A stretch of 22,333 nt of DNA from positions 1-22,333 of the IMG/VR virus record IMGVR_UViG_3300017758_000158; one strand, given 5' to 3'. This stretch comes from a virus. Made by a program: the position numbers and the translations under genes. Below, in pieces: positions 9,099 through 22,333 of the stretch. The notes below the pieces were generated by a model. It made no database searches. It was not told the origin of the DNA and worked only from the letters and a program-made list of their open reading frames with translations. Every line of letters begins with the position of its first letter. Position 1 is the stretch's first letter.

Positions 9099-9392
9099 TT
9101 ATCCGTTTGGATTACTGATATCTGGAGGTGTTGGTGTCGGAACGCTTTCTTTTTCCAGCTTTAATTCGTAGGCTACTGTATTGTTCATGAGATAATCTCT
9201 TGTCATACGATTCGCAAACTGATTTGTTGTTTCTGGGTTTGAAATGTATTGTGGGTTTGTGTCTGGATCTTCAGGCAAGCTTGGATCAAAATCAGGATTG
9301 GGTATATTTTCTGTGTAACCATAGTTTGCACACATAGCGGCAATTACTCTGCCCACATCACTATCTGCGATTATAATTGAAAATTCAGCCAT
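9099..9392 (-). CDS. Small protein of the fibre cassette, unknown function
   Basis: The 97-aa protein has a helical N-terminus (MAEFSIIIADSDVGRVIAAMCANYGY), a Pro/Asp/Asn-rich middle (residues 30-52), then a helix (FANRMTRDYLMNNTVAYELKLEKE) and a Pro-rich tail. The Shine-Dalgarno is strong (AAGAGGAGATAAC before ATG). It ends 37 nt before the fibre ATG. Small proteins with a 'QFANRMxRxYLxxxVxAYE' helix next to fibre genes are familiar from phage genomes, but I know no experimentally assigned role. It may be a minor virion protein or a partner in fibre assembly. No signal peptide or membrane segment is seen. Confidence 0.5.
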   Translation of the reverse strand: MAEFSIIIADSDVGRVIAAMCANYGYTENIPNPDFDPSLPEDPDTNPQYISNPETTNQFANRMTRDYLMNNTVAYELKLEKESVPTPTPPDISNPNG

Positions 9393-9394
9393 TG

Positions 9395-9613
9395 TTATCT
9401 CCTCTTGTTTAGATTTATTATTGTATTTATCGAAAGTTCATGATTTTGCAATTTGTTAATTCTTAAGTCAAAATTTGACACCTCGTTTATCCTTAGTGGA
9501 AAAGTCAGCGTCGAACTGTTAAAGTATATTATGGGTAGTGTGCCAAGAAATACACTCTCAGAAACTTTAATTTCGCTAAAAGCCGCTTCAGAAAAAGCTG
9601 TAGTACCAAACAT
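9395..9613 (-). CDS. Small fibre-cassette protein with FGTTAFSEAAFSE N-terminus
   Basis: The chosen ATG at 9613 gives 72 residues and has GGAGGTGG immediately upstream. An in-frame ATG at 9655 would start inside the T-tract of the MCP terminator, and one at 9625 overlaps the Shine-Dalgarno; both are rejected. The N-terminus FGTTAFSEAAFSE belongs to the repetitive Phe-Gly-Ala-Phe type seen in short proteins next to phage fibre genes. The rest is beta-like with a repeated RINxxxNxxLxIN flavour (LRINEVSNFDLRINKLQNHELSIN, three hydrophobic strands about 11 residues apart). The stop lies 2 nt before the next ATG. A promoter-like TTGTGTATTAT lies 14-26 nt upstream, making this the first gene of the fibre cassette. 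Confidence 0.5.
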   Translation of the reverse strand: MFGTTAFSEAAFSEIKVSESVFLGTLPIIYFNSSTLTFPLRINEVSNFDLRINKLQNHELSINTIINLNKRR

Positions 9614-9626
9614 ATCCACCTCCATT

Positions 9627-9639
9627 AAATAATACACAA
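9627..9639 (-). promoter_or_regulatory. Late promoter candidate before the fibre cassette
   Basis: The minus strand reads TTGTGTATTATTT, 14 nt before the ATG at 9613 and only 17 nt after the MCP terminator T-tract. It would restart transcription for the fibre genes. It shares TTGTGTAT(A/T)AT with the portal and protease promoters. Confidence 0.6.
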
Positions 9640-9655
9640 AAAAACGTGGATACAT

Positions 9656-9689
9656 AAAAAAAAGGCTACCCCGAAAAAACAGGGTAGCC
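9656..9689 (-). terminator. Rho-independent terminator after the major capsid gene
   Basis: On the minus strand a perfect 8-bp stem GGCTACCC/GGGTAGCC (9689-9682 with 9671-9664) with a 10-nt loop is followed by eight Ts (9663-9656). It starts 27 nt after the capsid stop codon, so it should end the head transcript. Confidence 0.92.
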
Positions 9690-9715
9690 CAAGGGTCAAT
9701 AAGCGGTGAACAATA

Positions 9716-10720
9716 TTAGAAGGAGCCCGCTAGAACTCTTCTGTTGTCAAGAACACCGAACCCAATTTCTGCCCAACCATAGTAACCCTGTCGTTGGTGT
9801 CTATGGAGACCTTCGTCTTCATAAATCTCAACTTCTTTCTTAACAGGCATTACGAAGCTGTCGTTTGGACCCTGATCAAGACCGATCACAAGCTCAACAT
9901 CGCCAGCGGCTAAAGAGCCACCAAGATCGCTAGTGAAGTAAGTCTGATACTCTTGGTTATCTCCAAACTCAAAGACATCGTGAAGGTTGACACCAAAGAC
10001 TCTAGTGATGGCTGGACCATCGTCAGTAGCCGTGTAAATTTCTCTACGAGAAACTTCATCAAGCTGGTCAACACCCCAGTTGCGAATATCTTCAATCGCT
10101 TCAGGAGAGCAGTAAAGGTCGCTAAGACGACCCGGAGCAGTGGCAGCATTACCACCACCGTTGCGACGCATGACAGTTTTCATCAAACTGATCAAACGCT
10201 TAGTGAACTGGCCAGCAGCAGCGTCAGCATCGTAAACCAAAATGTTTCGGTCTACAGCAGCGGCCAAAAGTGTGTGCCATCCGTCGTCGTTAATTTTCTT
10301 AACGAAGGACGATTCTAGCACCTGCATAGCACGAGCAACAACGTTCCAGTTAGCTTCACGAGCATATTTAAGCAAGAAATCAATCGAGCTAGAAATGCCG
10401 TAAGTGTTAACCATTACGTAGTCACCTTCTACGTGTCGCTCAGGAATTCGACCATTGCCGGGATTCGTGTAAGCGATATGCTCTGTCTCAGTTCCGGGTG
10501 CAAGAAGATCCAAAGGAAATTCTGGTGTAGCTCCCGGCTCTAAAGGCATTGCCTCGTAGATTGAAGTAACGATATCGCCAAACAAAACACCCTTACGAAT
10601 TGGGGTCTCTAGTGCTTTAGCGATTTCTCTTTGGGCCGCAACAGCGACCATCTTATCAGAACTACCCGAGCGCTTGAGCAACTCAATGAATTCGGGTGTA
10701 GGTCGATTTTTGATAGACAT
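9716..10720 (-). CDS. Major capsid protein (HK97-fold type)
   Basis: The 334-aa protein is a typical size for an HK97-fold capsid protein without a long N-terminal delta domain. It follows scaffold and decoration-like genes and is closed by a strong terminator, the usual context for the most abundant virion protein. Sequence features agree: an acidic/aromatic segment (HVEGDYVMVNTYGISSSIDFLLKYAREANWNV) followed by a spine-helix-like stretch (MQVLESSFVKKINDDGWHTLLAAA), and a C-terminal beta region with GYYGWAEIGFGVLDNRRV, which resembles the axial-domain ending of many capsid proteins. Shine-Dalgarno AAAGGAG lies 9 nt before ATG. There is no protease-type N-terminal extension, fitting the separate scaffold. 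Assignment rests on position, size and these segments. Confidence 0.8.
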   Translation of the reverse strand: MSIKNRPTPEFIELLKRSGSSDKMVAVAAQREIAKALETPIRKGVLFGDIVTSIYEAMPLEPGATPEFPLDLLAPGTETEHIAYTNPGNGRIPERHVEGDYVMVNTYGISSSIDFLLKYAREANWNVVARAMQVLESSFVKKINDDGWHTLLAAAVDRNILVYDADAAAGQFTKRLISLMKTVMRRNGGGNAATAPGRLSDLYCSPEAIEDIRNWGVDQLDEVSRREIYTATDDGPAITRVFGVNLHDVFEFGDNQEYQTYFTSDLGGSLAAGDVELVIGLDQGPNDSFVMPVKKEVEIYEDEGLHRHQRQGYYGWAEIGFGVLDNRRVLAGSF

Positions 10721-19470: not shown

Positions 19471-20262
19471 TTATTCCTTTACTGTTTCCGATGTTAGAAA
19501 TGGTTGATCTACTTGTCCATCGTTGAAGGACATGTATTCCGATAATCGTTCTTTCTCATTTTCCATCGCTAGTCTCATTTTTTCCATTTCGATTCCTAGT
19601 TCGCTGCGGTATTGAGGATCGGTTGCTATTTTCTTAACGAGAGAAGCGAAAGTAAATTTAGAATCTTCAATTGCTTTGACTCGCTGCTCTCTGGTGCCCT
19701 TGAGATCCTTCAGCATGGTCGCCTTGCGTGCTTGAAGGTCTTTGTAGTCTTTAGACAGGGTTTCCTGTGAAGCCCTTAGAATGGCCACCTGACGCTCTAG
19801 ATTAATAATCACATCCATGTCGCGTTGATCCTTGTCAACACTTTTCTCTTCTCGCACCAGCCTTTCAGCTAATATTATTTCTTGTTGATTGTCTCGCTGA
19901 CTTTTGAGTATGCGGTTCATAAGTATTTCTAGTTTGATTGTATCAATTATTTGCATTTCTTCTGTATGAAACACATCCTCTTTAAATTGACTCCACATCT
20001 TTTTGAAATGAAACTCGAACATTTCCAACTCTTCACCAGAAAACTGATTGGAAAGCTCCTTGTAGTATGGCTTCTCTTTTAACTCATTCGCAACAGCAGC
20101 CTCTTTTTTCTGACTAGGAGAGAATCCCACATTTCTTTTGATCCAATCTCGTATCGAATCTGGATCTCTGTCTAGATGTTGTGCTATGGATTCTGGAGAA
20201 AGAACCTCGGCTTTCGCCTCGATAAAAGACATATCCTCTTTTGACAATCTACCCTTCTTCAT
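19471..20262 (-). CDS. Probable terminase small subunit
   Basis: From the ATG at 20262 the protein is 263 aa. That codon has TGGAG 6 nt upstream; an ATG at 20274 is itself part of the Shine-Dalgarno and is less likely. Residues 1-50 carry a helix-turn-helix (LSPESIAQHLDRDPDSIRDWIKRNVG), then a long helical coiled-coil region (about 60-240, e.g. DTIKLEILMNRILKSQRDNQQEIILAERLV). An N-terminal DNA-binding HTH followed by oligomerising helices is the small-terminase layout, and the gene lies in the packaging block, although gmd, HNH and three other genes separate it from terL. It is longer than most small terminases (about 150-200 aa). A DNA-binding regulator is the alternative. Confidence 0.6.
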   Translation of the reverse strand: MKKGRLSKEDMSFIEAKAEVLSPESIAQHLDRDPDSIRDWIKRNVGFSPSQKKEAAVANELKEKPYYKELSNQFSGEELEMFEFHFKKMWSQFKEDVFHTEEMQIIDTIKLEILMNRILKSQRDNQQEIILAERLVREEKSVDKDQRDMDVIINLERQVAILRASQETLSKDYKDLQARKATMLKDLKGTREQRVKAIEDSKFTFASLVKKIATDPQYRSELGIEMEKMRLAMENEKERLSEYMSFNDGQVDQPFLTSETVKE

Positions 20263-20767
20263 TATAATCTCCATTAATTATATCTTCTATAGCTTGTATA
20301 ACTATGGCCTTACGGCCTTTTGGCAAAGAAGAGTTTGTTTGGAGTCTTAGATAGTCACCTCGTAAGTCAGATGGGAGTTTTCTATCTATAAGCTCTAGGG
20401 TTTCAGTTATGTGGGCATTACTTAATGTTTCATCTTCTGTGGATACTGAATATAGTGCGGCAATGTCCATTGGTTCAAGAATACTCTTTTTACGTTCCTG
20501 TATCTTTTGGGCATTTCCGTAATCAAATCTATAATAGTTATCTCGTTTGAAATTCTTTAGACGATTATTAATGTGTGCGTACATGAAGTTTTCAAGAGGT
20601 TTCGATGAGTCATATCTTTTTAGTCCTTCTATACCCATCAAAAATGCTTCTTGTTCTATATCATCAACATCATATGAAGCAAAGACAAATTTATGGGCGA
20701 GTTTCTTAGCCACTTTTGTAATTACTTGTACTACTTCATCTTCTGTTAAGTTATTCGGGGTTTCCAT
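20249..20767 (-). CDS. Late sigma factor, T4 gp55-like
   Basis: From ATG 20767 the protein is 172 aa. This codon follows a purine-rich AAGGAACAGGAACAG, while an in-frame ATG at 20812 has no ribosome site. Residues 20-76 match sigma-70 region 2 in its phage-late form: VAKKLAHKFVFASYDVDDIEQEAF, then GIEGLKRYDSSKPLENFMYAHINNRLKNFKR. The order 'ia..L..rF.FasY....qEa...GieglkryD..k..np..Y....i...l..fkr' parallels T4 gp55 (185 aa), which directs host RNA polymerase to late promoters. A short helical tail (119-166) could hold a region-4-like or clamp-binding piece, but I cannot confirm this. It overlaps both neighbours (14 and 17 nt). Confidence 0.75.
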   Translation of the reverse strand: METPNNLTEDEVVQVITKVAKKLAHKFVFASYDVDDIEQEAFLMGIEGLKRYDSSKPLENFMYAHINNRLKNFKRDNYYRFDYGNAQKIQERKKSILEPMDIAALYSVSTEDETLSNAHITETLELIDRKLPSDLRGDYLRLQTNSSLPKGRKAIVIQAIEDIINGDYNEEG

Positions 20768-20981
20768 TCTGTTCCTGTTCCTTTTCCTCTTCGTCCGTTT
20801 GTGGGACGCCATTTATAACGTGTGGTATTGAGTTGGCTCCTGCTCCCCATGACTTTACATCGAACACGGGCGGGTCAGGAATGTCCTTAAATCCTTTTAG
20901 CGAGCTGTCTAGCTGGGCTGTACTCTTAGCGTGCAATTCTGTTTGTATGTTTTGCGAGTTTTTTCTTTTTTTGCGTGCCAT
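20751..20981 (-). CDS. Small hydrophilic protein, first gene of the minus-strand unit
   Basis: The 76-aa protein has a basic N-terminus (MARKKRKNSQNIQTELHAKS), a central DIPDPPVFDVKSWGAGANSIPHVING and an acidic Gln/Glu-rich tail (DEEEKEQEQNGNPE). No domain is recognised and it is probably partly disordered. Shine-Dalgarno TAGGAGC lies 6 nt before the ATG. It is the promoter-proximal gene: a GGTGTATAATAAGG motif lies 35-48 nt upstream. Its 3' end overlaps the sigma gene, so the two are translated together and it might be a sigma partner. No function is proposed. Confidence 0.6.
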   Translation of the reverse strand: MARKKRKNSQNIQTELHAKSTAQLDSSLKGFKDIPDPPVFDVKSWGAGANSIPHVINGVPQTDEEEKEQEQNGNPE

Positions 20982-21029: not shown

Positions 21030-21219
21030 AAAAACAAGGATATGCACACAAAACACGGACTCAAAGCGAAACTTGGGAAACTTTAGGGGCTAGTCGGATC
21101 TATTTAGCTAAGACATATTTGACAAATTTAACTCAATTGTGTTTGAACCACCCCGGCTTTTCTTCGTGAGGAAAACAAGTTCCAAACTGAACAAATAACT
21201 ACCCCGGCGCTTTTTTCCC

Positions 21220-21244
21220 TAAGTCTTTTGGTAGTAAGGACTTA
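21220..21244 (+). repeat. TAAGTC/GACTTA hairpin, copy 1
   Basis: A 6-bp perfect stem (21220-21225 with 21239-21244) encloses a 13-nt loop ttttggtagtaag. Two other copies near 22161 and 22213 have the same stem and loop length and a TTGGT core in the loop. No T-tract follows, so it is not a standard terminator. Confidence 0.7.
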
Positions 21245-21380
21245 CGACAATCGACAAATACCTTCTATAAAACTATATATCTTTTTAACTGGACACTTTG
21301 ATTCTGTGAATTTATTTATTGGTCGGCATTTCACCTCGGTTTTTACCGTGTCAAATAAATGGATTGCTTTTTTTCAGAAT

Positions 21381-21400
21381 CGACGTAAGTGATTGGTATG
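21381..21400 (+). repeat. Half copy of the hairpin element
   Basis: cgacgtaagtgattggtatg matches the left arm and loop core of hairpin copy 3 (cgacgtaagtccttggtat), but the right GACTTA arm is missing. It may be a decayed copy. It lies 34 nt before the rightward promoter element, similar to the distance from hairpin copy 3 to the second promoter block. Confidence 0.5.
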
Positions 21401-21433
21401 TATAGGGTTATGAAAATCATTTGACTACTCAGG

Positions 21434-21451
21434 TATAATAAGGTGTAAGAA
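21434..21451 (+). promoter_or_regulatory. Rightward promoter-like element, inverted copy of the leftward one
   Basis: TATAATAAGGTGTAAGAA matches 17 of 18 bases of the leftward promoter sequence but faces the other way. It carries a perfect TATAAT. TTGACT lies at 21421, too close (7 nt) to be its -35. It precedes the 28-aa reading frame. Confidence 0.5.
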
Positions 21452-21471
21452 GGAAAAAGGGAATTAAGACT

Positions 21472-21558
21472 ATGAAAAACAATGAAACAAACTGGGACGG
21501 CTTTGAGATTTACCTAGATTTTATTTTGGGAAATTCTGAAAAAGAATCTACAGAGTGA
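21472..21558 (+). CDS. Possible 28-aa acidic peptide
   Basis: ATG at 21472 opens MKNNETNWDGFEIYLDFILG followed by eight residues and TGA. A purine-rich AAGGAAAAAGGGAA lies 7-20 nt upstream, and the outward plus-strand promoter-like sequence ends 19 nt upstream of the ATG. The peptide is acidic and could form one amphipathic helix. Its length is too short for confidence from composition. It sits at the same position relative to its promoter as a real first gene would, which is the main argument. Confidence 0.4.
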   Translation: MKNNETNWDGFEIYLDFILGNSEKESTE

Positions 21559-21599
21559 CCTAACGTGTCGCATCAATAGACGATAATACTAATATAAGA
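21556..21599 (+). promoter_or_regulatory. Conserved spaced promoter-like block, copy 1
   Basis: TGACC, 4 nt, GTGTC, 9 nt, GACGATAATA, then ATAT and AGA. Copy 2 at 22277 has the same elements at the same spacing. GATAAT is -10-like, but no -35 lies 17 nt upstream; TGACC is 21 nt away. It begins at the TGA stop of the 28-aa frame and leads into an A/C-rich leader for the 75-aa gene. Confidence 0.55.
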
Positions 21600-21650
21600 A
21601 GTTAACAACAAGTTAACACAACACAACACGATCTCGAAAGGGTCAACATT

Positions 21651-21878
21651 ATGAACATTAAATTAGAACTAACAACCAGCTTAACTCCAATGGTTCTTAC
21701 CGGTGCTTACACTGGCAAGCAACATGGTAACAAAGTTATCTTCGGTGATTATCACGGTGAACCTACCGTTATCATGCAAGATATGATCAGATCATACAAG
21801 ATCTTAAATAAAACTAGAAAGGCTAGTGAGATTGATGCAAGCAACTATATCGCAAAGTATGGTTCGGCTGCTGAGTAA
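21651..21878 (+). CDS. Small plus-strand protein of unknown function (75 aa)
   Basis: The protein starts MNIKLELTTSLTPMVLTGAYTG, has a beta-rich first half (KVIFGDYHGEPTVIM) and a basic helical second half (QDMIRSYKILNKTRKASEIDASNYIAKYG). Shine-Dalgarno AAAGGG is 8 nt before ATG. The leader is A/C-rich with two GTTAAC hexamers and follows a conserved promoter-like block. The mix of N-terminal strands and a C-terminal helix is compatible with a small host-takeover or regulatory protein, but no family is recognised. It lies opposite in strand to the structural genes, in a sparse region typical of phage early genes. Confidence 0.65.
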   Translation: MNIKLELTTSLTPMVLTGAYTGKQHGNKVIFGDYHGEPTVIMQDMIRSYKILNKTRKASEIDASNYIAKYGSAAE

Positions 21879-21974
21879 GGGTTCGACCCGCAAGCCTTGC
21901 CTTAGTCGCAAGCATAGGTGGCGACCTATTCAAGATACGCATTTTTAAATTTTGTTTTTGTTTTAAGGTTTGAT
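21879..21974 (+). other. Structured leader between the 75-aa and zinc-ribbon genes
   Basis: After the TAA come GGGTTCGACCC, then GCAAG (21890-21894), CTTGC (21896-21900), GCAAG (21908-21912), and GTCGC (21905-21909) with GCGAC (21921-21925). CTTGC/GCAAG (21896-21912) and GTCGC/GCGAC (21905-21925) overlap and cannot form together. The next gene's ribosome site begins at about 21964. This could be a translational or attenuator-like switch, or RNA processing sites; the evidence is geometric only. Confidence 0.35.
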
Positions 21975-22151
21975 ATGATTTTATTTGAGTGTTCCGATTG
22001 TTTGACCGAGTGCTATGCGGACGAAGTAGTTTGCAGTTCGTGTGGTGCTGATCTAACCAATGAAGTGGACGCGTCTGATTACGATTACGACGATCACGAT
22101 GGGCAACCATCGGAGATGCAGGAATGGCACGACTTCGATCCCGATTGTTAG
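21975..22151 (+). CDS. Small acidic zinc-ribbon protein (58 aa)
   Basis: From ATG 21975 the sequence begins MILFECSDCLTECYADEVVCSSCGADL: C6-x2-C9 and C20-x2-C23 form a four-cysteine zinc ribbon, with another Cys at 13. The rest is extremely acidic (VDASDYDYDDHDGQ, then DFDPDC at the end). TAAGGTT 7 nt upstream supports this start over an in-frame ATG at 21918, which would add a hydrophobic stretch encoded by the structured intergenic DNA. A small zinc ribbon with an acidic, DNA-mimic-like tail suggests binding to a host nucleic-acid protein, for example RNA polymerase. This is inference only. Confidence 0.6.
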   Translation: MILFECSDCLTECYADEVVCSSCGADLTNEVDASDYDYDDHDGQPSEMQEWHDFDPDC

Positions 22152-22152
22152 T

Positions 22153-22193
22153 CGGCGACGTAAGTCCTTTGGTGGTAACGACTTAGGTCGGCG
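22153..22193 (+). repeat. TAAGTC/GACTTA hairpin, copy 2, extended stem
   Basis: The core stem is 22161-22166 with 22180-22185 and a 13-nt loop ctttggtggtaac. CGAC (22156-22159) pairs with GTCG (22187-22190) across one G-G mismatch, and CG (22153-22154) with CG (22192-22193) across another, giving about 12 paired bases. It starts 2 nt after the zinc-ribbon stop codon. Confidence 0.7.
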
Positions 22194-22204
22194 GGGCCGG
22201 GGCC
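22193..22204 (+). repeat. GGGGCC tandem in a GC-rich spot
   Basis: Two adjacent GGGGCC hexamers between hairpins 2 and 3, in otherwise A+T-rich intergenic DNA. The function is unknown. Confidence 0.5.
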
Positions 22205-22212
22205 GGATCGAC

Positions 22213-22239
22213 GTAAGTCCTTGGTATCAAACGACTTAC
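22213..22239 (+). repeat. TAAGTC/GACTTA hairpin, copy 3
   Basis: A 7-bp stem GTAAGTC/GACTTAC encloses the 13-nt loop cttggtatcaaac. It lies 28 nt after copy 2's core ends and 38 nt before the second promoter-like block. Confidence 0.7.
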
Positions 22240-22276
22240 AACTATTTATATAATCTTTTAATAATCTTTGAGATAG

Positions 22277-22319
22277 TGACCAGATGTGTCACACGCATGG
22301 ACGATAATATATATATGAG
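22277..22319 (+). promoter_or_regulatory. Conserved spaced promoter-like block, copy 2
   Basis: Same TGACC / GTGTC / GACGATAATA layout as copy 1 with identical spacings (offsets 0, 9 and 23). It is followed by alternating AT and an A/C-rich stretch to the window end, like the leader of copy 1, so a plus-strand gene probably starts just beyond the window. Confidence 0.55.
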
Positions 22320-22333
22320 AGAAACAAACAACA

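Follow-up and report, generated by a model that had tools for sequence, protein, structure and literature searches.

Several inverted repeats with the same outer hexamers lie in the early-side intergenic DNA of the window, which is the whole 22,333-nt stretch of viral DNA analysed here (IMG/VR record IMGVR_UViG_3300017758_000158). The question that they raise is what reads them: a factor that recognizes a folded hairpin, as was held in the initial annotation, or a protein that binds double-stranded DNA. On balance, the repeats are predicted from their sequence to be double-stranded, operator-type sites for a putative DNA-binding protein at early junctions, and not hairpins.

Paired palindromes in the window and in its relatives

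Three exact copies of TAAGTC-N13-GACTTA are present in the window (21220–21244, 22161–22185 and 22214–22238), against 0.00 expected from dinucleotide shuffles; the common TAAGTC/GACTTA stem and 13-nt interval first noticed there are thus real. The second and third copies form a single composite unit, in which palindrome P1 (22161–22185, TAAGTC CTT TGGTGGT AAC GACTTA) is followed by a 28-nt GC-rich linker (22186–22213, GGTCGGCGGGGCCGGGGCCGGATCGACG) and by palindrome P2 (22214–22238, TAAGTC CTT GGTATCA AAC GACTTA), 53 nt start-to-start. Linkers of the same length are found in relatives with this spacing. P1 begins approximately 9–10 nt after the end of a small early ORF on the plus strand (21978–22151), which encodes 57 amino acids with a zinc-ribbon match below cut-off. 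A promoter-like repeat on the plus strand (22275–22320, AGTGACC...GTGTC...GACGATAATATATATA) starts 36 nt past P2, and the distance of 34–38 nt claimed earlier for two such elements holds for this copy.

The copy at 21220–21244 stands alone, in the divergent region that separates the late (minus) from the early (plus) genes. It is taken for a P2 that has lost its P1 to decay, and the GC-rich stretch that precedes it (21197–21219) may be a remnant of the linker. L357, L358 and L359 have counterparts of this copy at the same position, 407–408 nt from the sigma gene, and L365–L369 have pairs nearby. The half-lost fourth copy of the initial annotation corresponds to a degenerate palindrome at 21386–21410 (TAAGTG ATT ... 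ATA GGGTTA), and L358 has a copy at equal distance. Past this palindrome, the promoter scan gave a sigma70-like candidate on the plus strand (21410–21439).

The interval between the hexamers is 13 nt long, as described, although it is not a plain loop: the TT at positions 8–9 and the AA at positions 17–18 are conserved like the stem. This TT/AA conservation was built into the pattern used for the IMG/VR scan, and it is also present in relatives found through their terminase. The half-site consensus from 162 copies is GNCS-TAAGTC-S-TT-R with a centre of approximately 5–7 nt, and it is matched by a profile built from 884 sequences with both strands included. The TTGGT core noted earlier is present on the plus strand in all three window loops but is not family-wide, as the central bases vary in relatives.

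Scanning with the extended palindrome TAAGTCNTT-N7-AANGACTTA matched at least 120 IMG/VR stretches, many of them multi-copy, and two or more palindromes were present in 94 of 201 loci (at least 90 IMG/VR loci), some of which overlap or come from one record. Further copies are thus plentiful, and a genuine family is supported over a local duplication. A relative of the window's terminase was encoded in 22 of the 28 records searched, with an identity of 52–86% in most and of 31–33% in G003, G004 and G011. Among the best 80 of 517 terminase-related stretches, 20 carried palindromes, on the early side. Since most of the tested records share a related terminase, the element-bearing records are, by these sequence criteria, a large uncultured phage clade. 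No close isolate phage was found by DNA search or by capsid search, isolate terminases were below 60% identity, and the short consensus gave chance-level matches only against isolate phages.

The spacing of the pairs over all loci was 53 nt 125 times, 52 nt 37 times, 50 nt 26 times and 41–42 nt 23 times. It is near-constant within a record, usually 52–53 nt, with 41–42, 47–50 or 58 nt in other lineages (for example, 41 nt seven times in L082, 50 nt seven times in L032 and 58 nt three times in L014). Strict helical phasing was dropped as a general rule, since spacings of 47–50 or 58 nt do not fit whole helical turns and a simple same-face model is therefore not general. Linkers of the 53-nt class contain a central GGCSSGCC-like box. 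In L022, L060, L078 and L101 the palindrome is flanked by TTATCCA, which resembles a DnaA box.

Similar sequences were also encountered in bacterial genomes. TAAGTC-N13-GACTTA in Planctomycetota, Spirochaetota and Fibrobacter has the outer hexamers and spacing of the phage palindromes, but these copies are mostly single, mostly without a partner at 38–60 nt, and complementary at position 7/19 (CG or GC in 99 of 113); they are probably unrelated to the phage units. Some of them (L151, L164, L180 and L219, Planctomycetota and others) adjoin apparent tRNA 3' ends, as judged by eye and with no tRNA scan; others (L135, L145, L183 and L199, Spirochaetota) are perfect palindromes whose conserved flank, CCGTCTCTCACGAATTCGAA, resembles the end of a repeated mobile element. 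Bacterial-genome contigs with phage-type 53-nt pairs were seen in L142, a Rhodobacteraceae metagenome-assembled genome, and in L204; in the L142 genome every exact site is on one contig, which is probably a binned phage contig. A Rhodobacteraceae regulator site was rejected as a candidate, the sites being confined to this single phage-like contig and absent from all 198 other genomes sampled from the family.

Base pairing and strand bias

Near-perfect inverted repeats are what an RNA or single-stranded DNA hairpin, recognized in folded form, would have. The pairing within them was analysed in 292 anchor-partner palindromes, which were selected on position with a low minimum score. Watson–Crick pairs at positions 4, 5, 6 and 7 numbered 144, 175, 176 and 103, against shuffled-column means of 160, 190, 185 and 128 (one-sided P for the deficit of 0.003, 0.0015, 0.015 and <0.0005 respectively), and doubly compensated changes were likewise rarer than in shuffled columns. 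In the 396 palindromes of 198 promoter-oriented units, pair 4 was G-C 203 times, A-C 63 times and G-T 56 times, and A-T did not rank among the seven most frequent types. Pair 5 was T-A 242 times, C-A 72 times, T-G 49 times and C-G four times. Position 7/19 prefers C or G and is often unpaired.

Changes of the G.U type and of the A.C type were about equally frequent in sense and antisense, with no strand preference. A sense-strand wobble, suggested by TAAGTC...GGTTTA variants, was rejected because TAAACC...GACTTA is equally common. The absence of stem covariation and of strand bias disfavours a hairpin of RNA or folded DNA. Where one half deviates, the other tends to match the consensus, which would be expected of a dimer that requires a single good half-site, and the fixed distance between half-sites is that predicted for a dimer bound to double-stranded DNA.

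Folding of the linker was considered as well. The linkers did not exceed dinucleotide shuffles in folding (z −0.31). Some symmetric covariation was present at spacings 41, 42 and 50, where the linkers are palindromic above shuffles, a point in favour of a hairpin, but there was none at spacing 53, and a structured GC linker was rejected for lack of signal at this spacing. The element matched no Rfam family. Recognition as RNA or folded DNA, the view of the initial annotation, is consequently rated very improbable. That annotation took the joint absence of compensatory changes in relatives and of further copies as a refutation; compensatory changes are indeed absent in relatives, and further copies are plentiful.

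Early-gene junctions, promoters and gene ends

Palindromes are restricted to one early-gene block of 10–20 kb per genome. All 37 in G009 (230 kb) lie within 35.4–56.1 kb, those in G014 (73 kb) are confined to 34.0–46.5 kb, and those in G004 (113 kb) lie in 85.1–93.7 kb with one outlier; reversed-sequence controls gave 0. Within the block, where gene calls are mechanical ORFs, units occupy most junctions of early transcription units.

For 244 pairs, a strong sigma70 promoter was found on the better side in 68%, a figure somewhat inflated by picking that side by score; the opposite side had one in 6%, and shuffles in 5%. Direction can be told by independent means in the terminase relatives, and there the expected orientation was found for 20 of 23 scored units. 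The association with plus-strand promoters first noted in the window is supported. The −35 element lay 30–70 nt past P2 in 95 of 137 strong promoters; this distance varies by tens of nucleotides, which counts against the operator. No palindrome precedes the first operon, next to the sigma gene, in G009 and G021, so not all early promoters have one.

The early promoters, mostly 30–70 nt past P2, have the form TTGACA-n-TG(C/A)CGATAATA-nn-GTATAAT (L241, L243, L246, G009, G021 and others). In many of them the spacer contains a CGATA box, which is unusual and could serve as an additional recognition element. The 46-nt repeat of the window, TTGACCTAACGTGTCAC...GACGATAAT, represents another promoter-like type; the repeat search gave a further plus-strand copy of it at 21554–21599, upstream of the ORF at 21651–21878 and 74% identical to that at 22275–22320; similar sequences follow units in L241, L243 and L274. 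Homologues of the mycobacteriophage L5 gp82 (PF25735) and of GP88 (PF17338) are encoded in the early block (G008 26837–27448, G021 9225–10016).

The same junctions could be explained from the other side if each unit were a factor-dependent or protein-roadblock terminator at the 3' end of an early transcription unit, the promoter being near through genome compactness alone. P1 most often lies 0–5 nt past the stop codon, and in G004 the TAA of TAAGTC can itself serve as the stop. The G004 unit at 93618–93692 lies between the last plus-strand gene and a convergent gene, where a 3'-end element would be expected, and this too counts against an operator. Intrinsic terminators are scarce in the early block (two in G009, none in G014 and one in G004). 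The repeats themselves are not intrinsic terminators, as already stated in the initial annotation, no terminator-like site having been found in the window region. However, units are also present in divergent regions (G014 46457/46510, window 21220, L365–L369), where a terminator is not needed, and these copies count for an operator. At two junctions (G009 54567 and G004 91754) a canonical intrinsic terminator already precedes the unit; linker folding is at the level of composition, and no T-tract follows the unit. A terminator as the main role is considered unlikely.

A role as a boundary for recombination or cassette exchange, in which units would promote shuffling of early cassettes by homologous or site-specific means, is rated lower still. 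It is consistent with spacing and some linkers that look homogenized within a genome. Break-points in alignments of relatives show a modest enrichment in units (12.0% versus 7.9% of alignment ends), but this enrichment is small and the end-points are not independent. The promoter early stem-loops (PeSLs) of T4-like phages are described as mediating such shuffling, in work cited in PMC4503421. Against this role, neither a PF00589 tyrosine integrase nor a PF00239 serine resolvase was found in 22 records, some longer than 220 kb and possibly fragments, with positive controls in 14 and 10 genomes, and a site for a phage-encoded recombinase was rejected.

As an operator, the unit would consist of four half-sites in two palindromes around the GC-rich linker. 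A dimeric protein, encoded by the phage or by the host, would occupy both palindromes, and its binding would set or shut off the early promoters together. The bound unit may also stop read-through from the preceding unit, and one sequence at all junctions may aid the exchange of units between phages. A unit could plausibly act as an operator and block polymerase as well, the roles of operator, roadblock and boundary not being mutually exclusive. More tentatively, the whole early region may be under a dispersed array of up to approximately 18 units, four-half-site operators for one putative, strongly conserved DNA-binding protein, with early units as interchangeable modules of site, promoter and gene. 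To our knowledge, such a clade-wide control scheme is not known from any isolated phage.

Candidate factors and known systems

Conservation of the half-site down to approximately 31% terminase identity suggests that the reader protein is itself conserved or host-wide. A search for shared gene families yielded two candidates only. The first is a sigma70 region 2 protein (20249–20812, minus strand), whose family occurs in more element-bearing loci than any other (30 of 72). The second, an adjoining protein on the same strand (19471–20274), has a weak helix-turn-helix match (HTH_23, below cut-off), looks coiled-coil-like by eye and was found in 25 of the 72 loci. This product may be a DNA-binding factor or may simply be the small terminase. 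In G004 its place is taken by a 348-amino-acid ORF that is similar by eye and was undetected by profile search.

The paired palindromes with lineage-typical spacing, and a promoter mostly 30–70 nt on, provide a sequence handle that delimits early regions and promoters in a clade without isolates. Joint control and exchange of early phage genes thereby becomes a testable question.

Of the known systems compared, PeSLs and stoperators come closest. The hairpin promoters of N4-type phage RNA polymerase have a short stem and a 3-nt loop, which does not fit the palindrome units. A search for single-subunit phage RNA polymerase (PF00940) gave no match, with the controls likewise silent.

The PeSLs of T4-like phages were reportedly described by Arbiol in 2010 and Comeau in 2014. 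In a PeSL, selection acts on the stem-loop structure, which is followed by a T-tract as in an intrinsic terminator. Like PeSLs, the palindrome units are a recurrent intergenic motif that adjoins early sigma70 promoters, in tailed-phage regions of small early genes that can be exchanged. In contrast, the units are two conserved palindromes with lineage-typical spacing and a GC linker, show neither selected base pairing nor a T-tract, and are conserved in sequence across a clade. For location at shuffling break-points, a further PeSL feature, the observation is the small enrichment given above, whose end-points are not independent. In PMC4503421, PeSLs are termed composite conserved promoter-terminator motifs.

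The stoperators of Cluster A mycobacteriophages are, according to PMC6550527 and PMC9283540, asymmetric 13-bp sites, mostly in one orientation, that are bound by a temperate-phage repressor. The palindrome units resemble them in the many dispersed copies of one site and in the single binding protein and effect on transcription postulated for it. They differ in being double palindromes, without the asymmetry and shared orientation of stoperators, and in being limited to the early block; the lack of an integrase in the 22 possibly incomplete records gives no support to a temperate life. Since a defining feature of PeSLs and one of stoperators are absent, the palindrome units are likened in function to an operator array and assigned to neither group.
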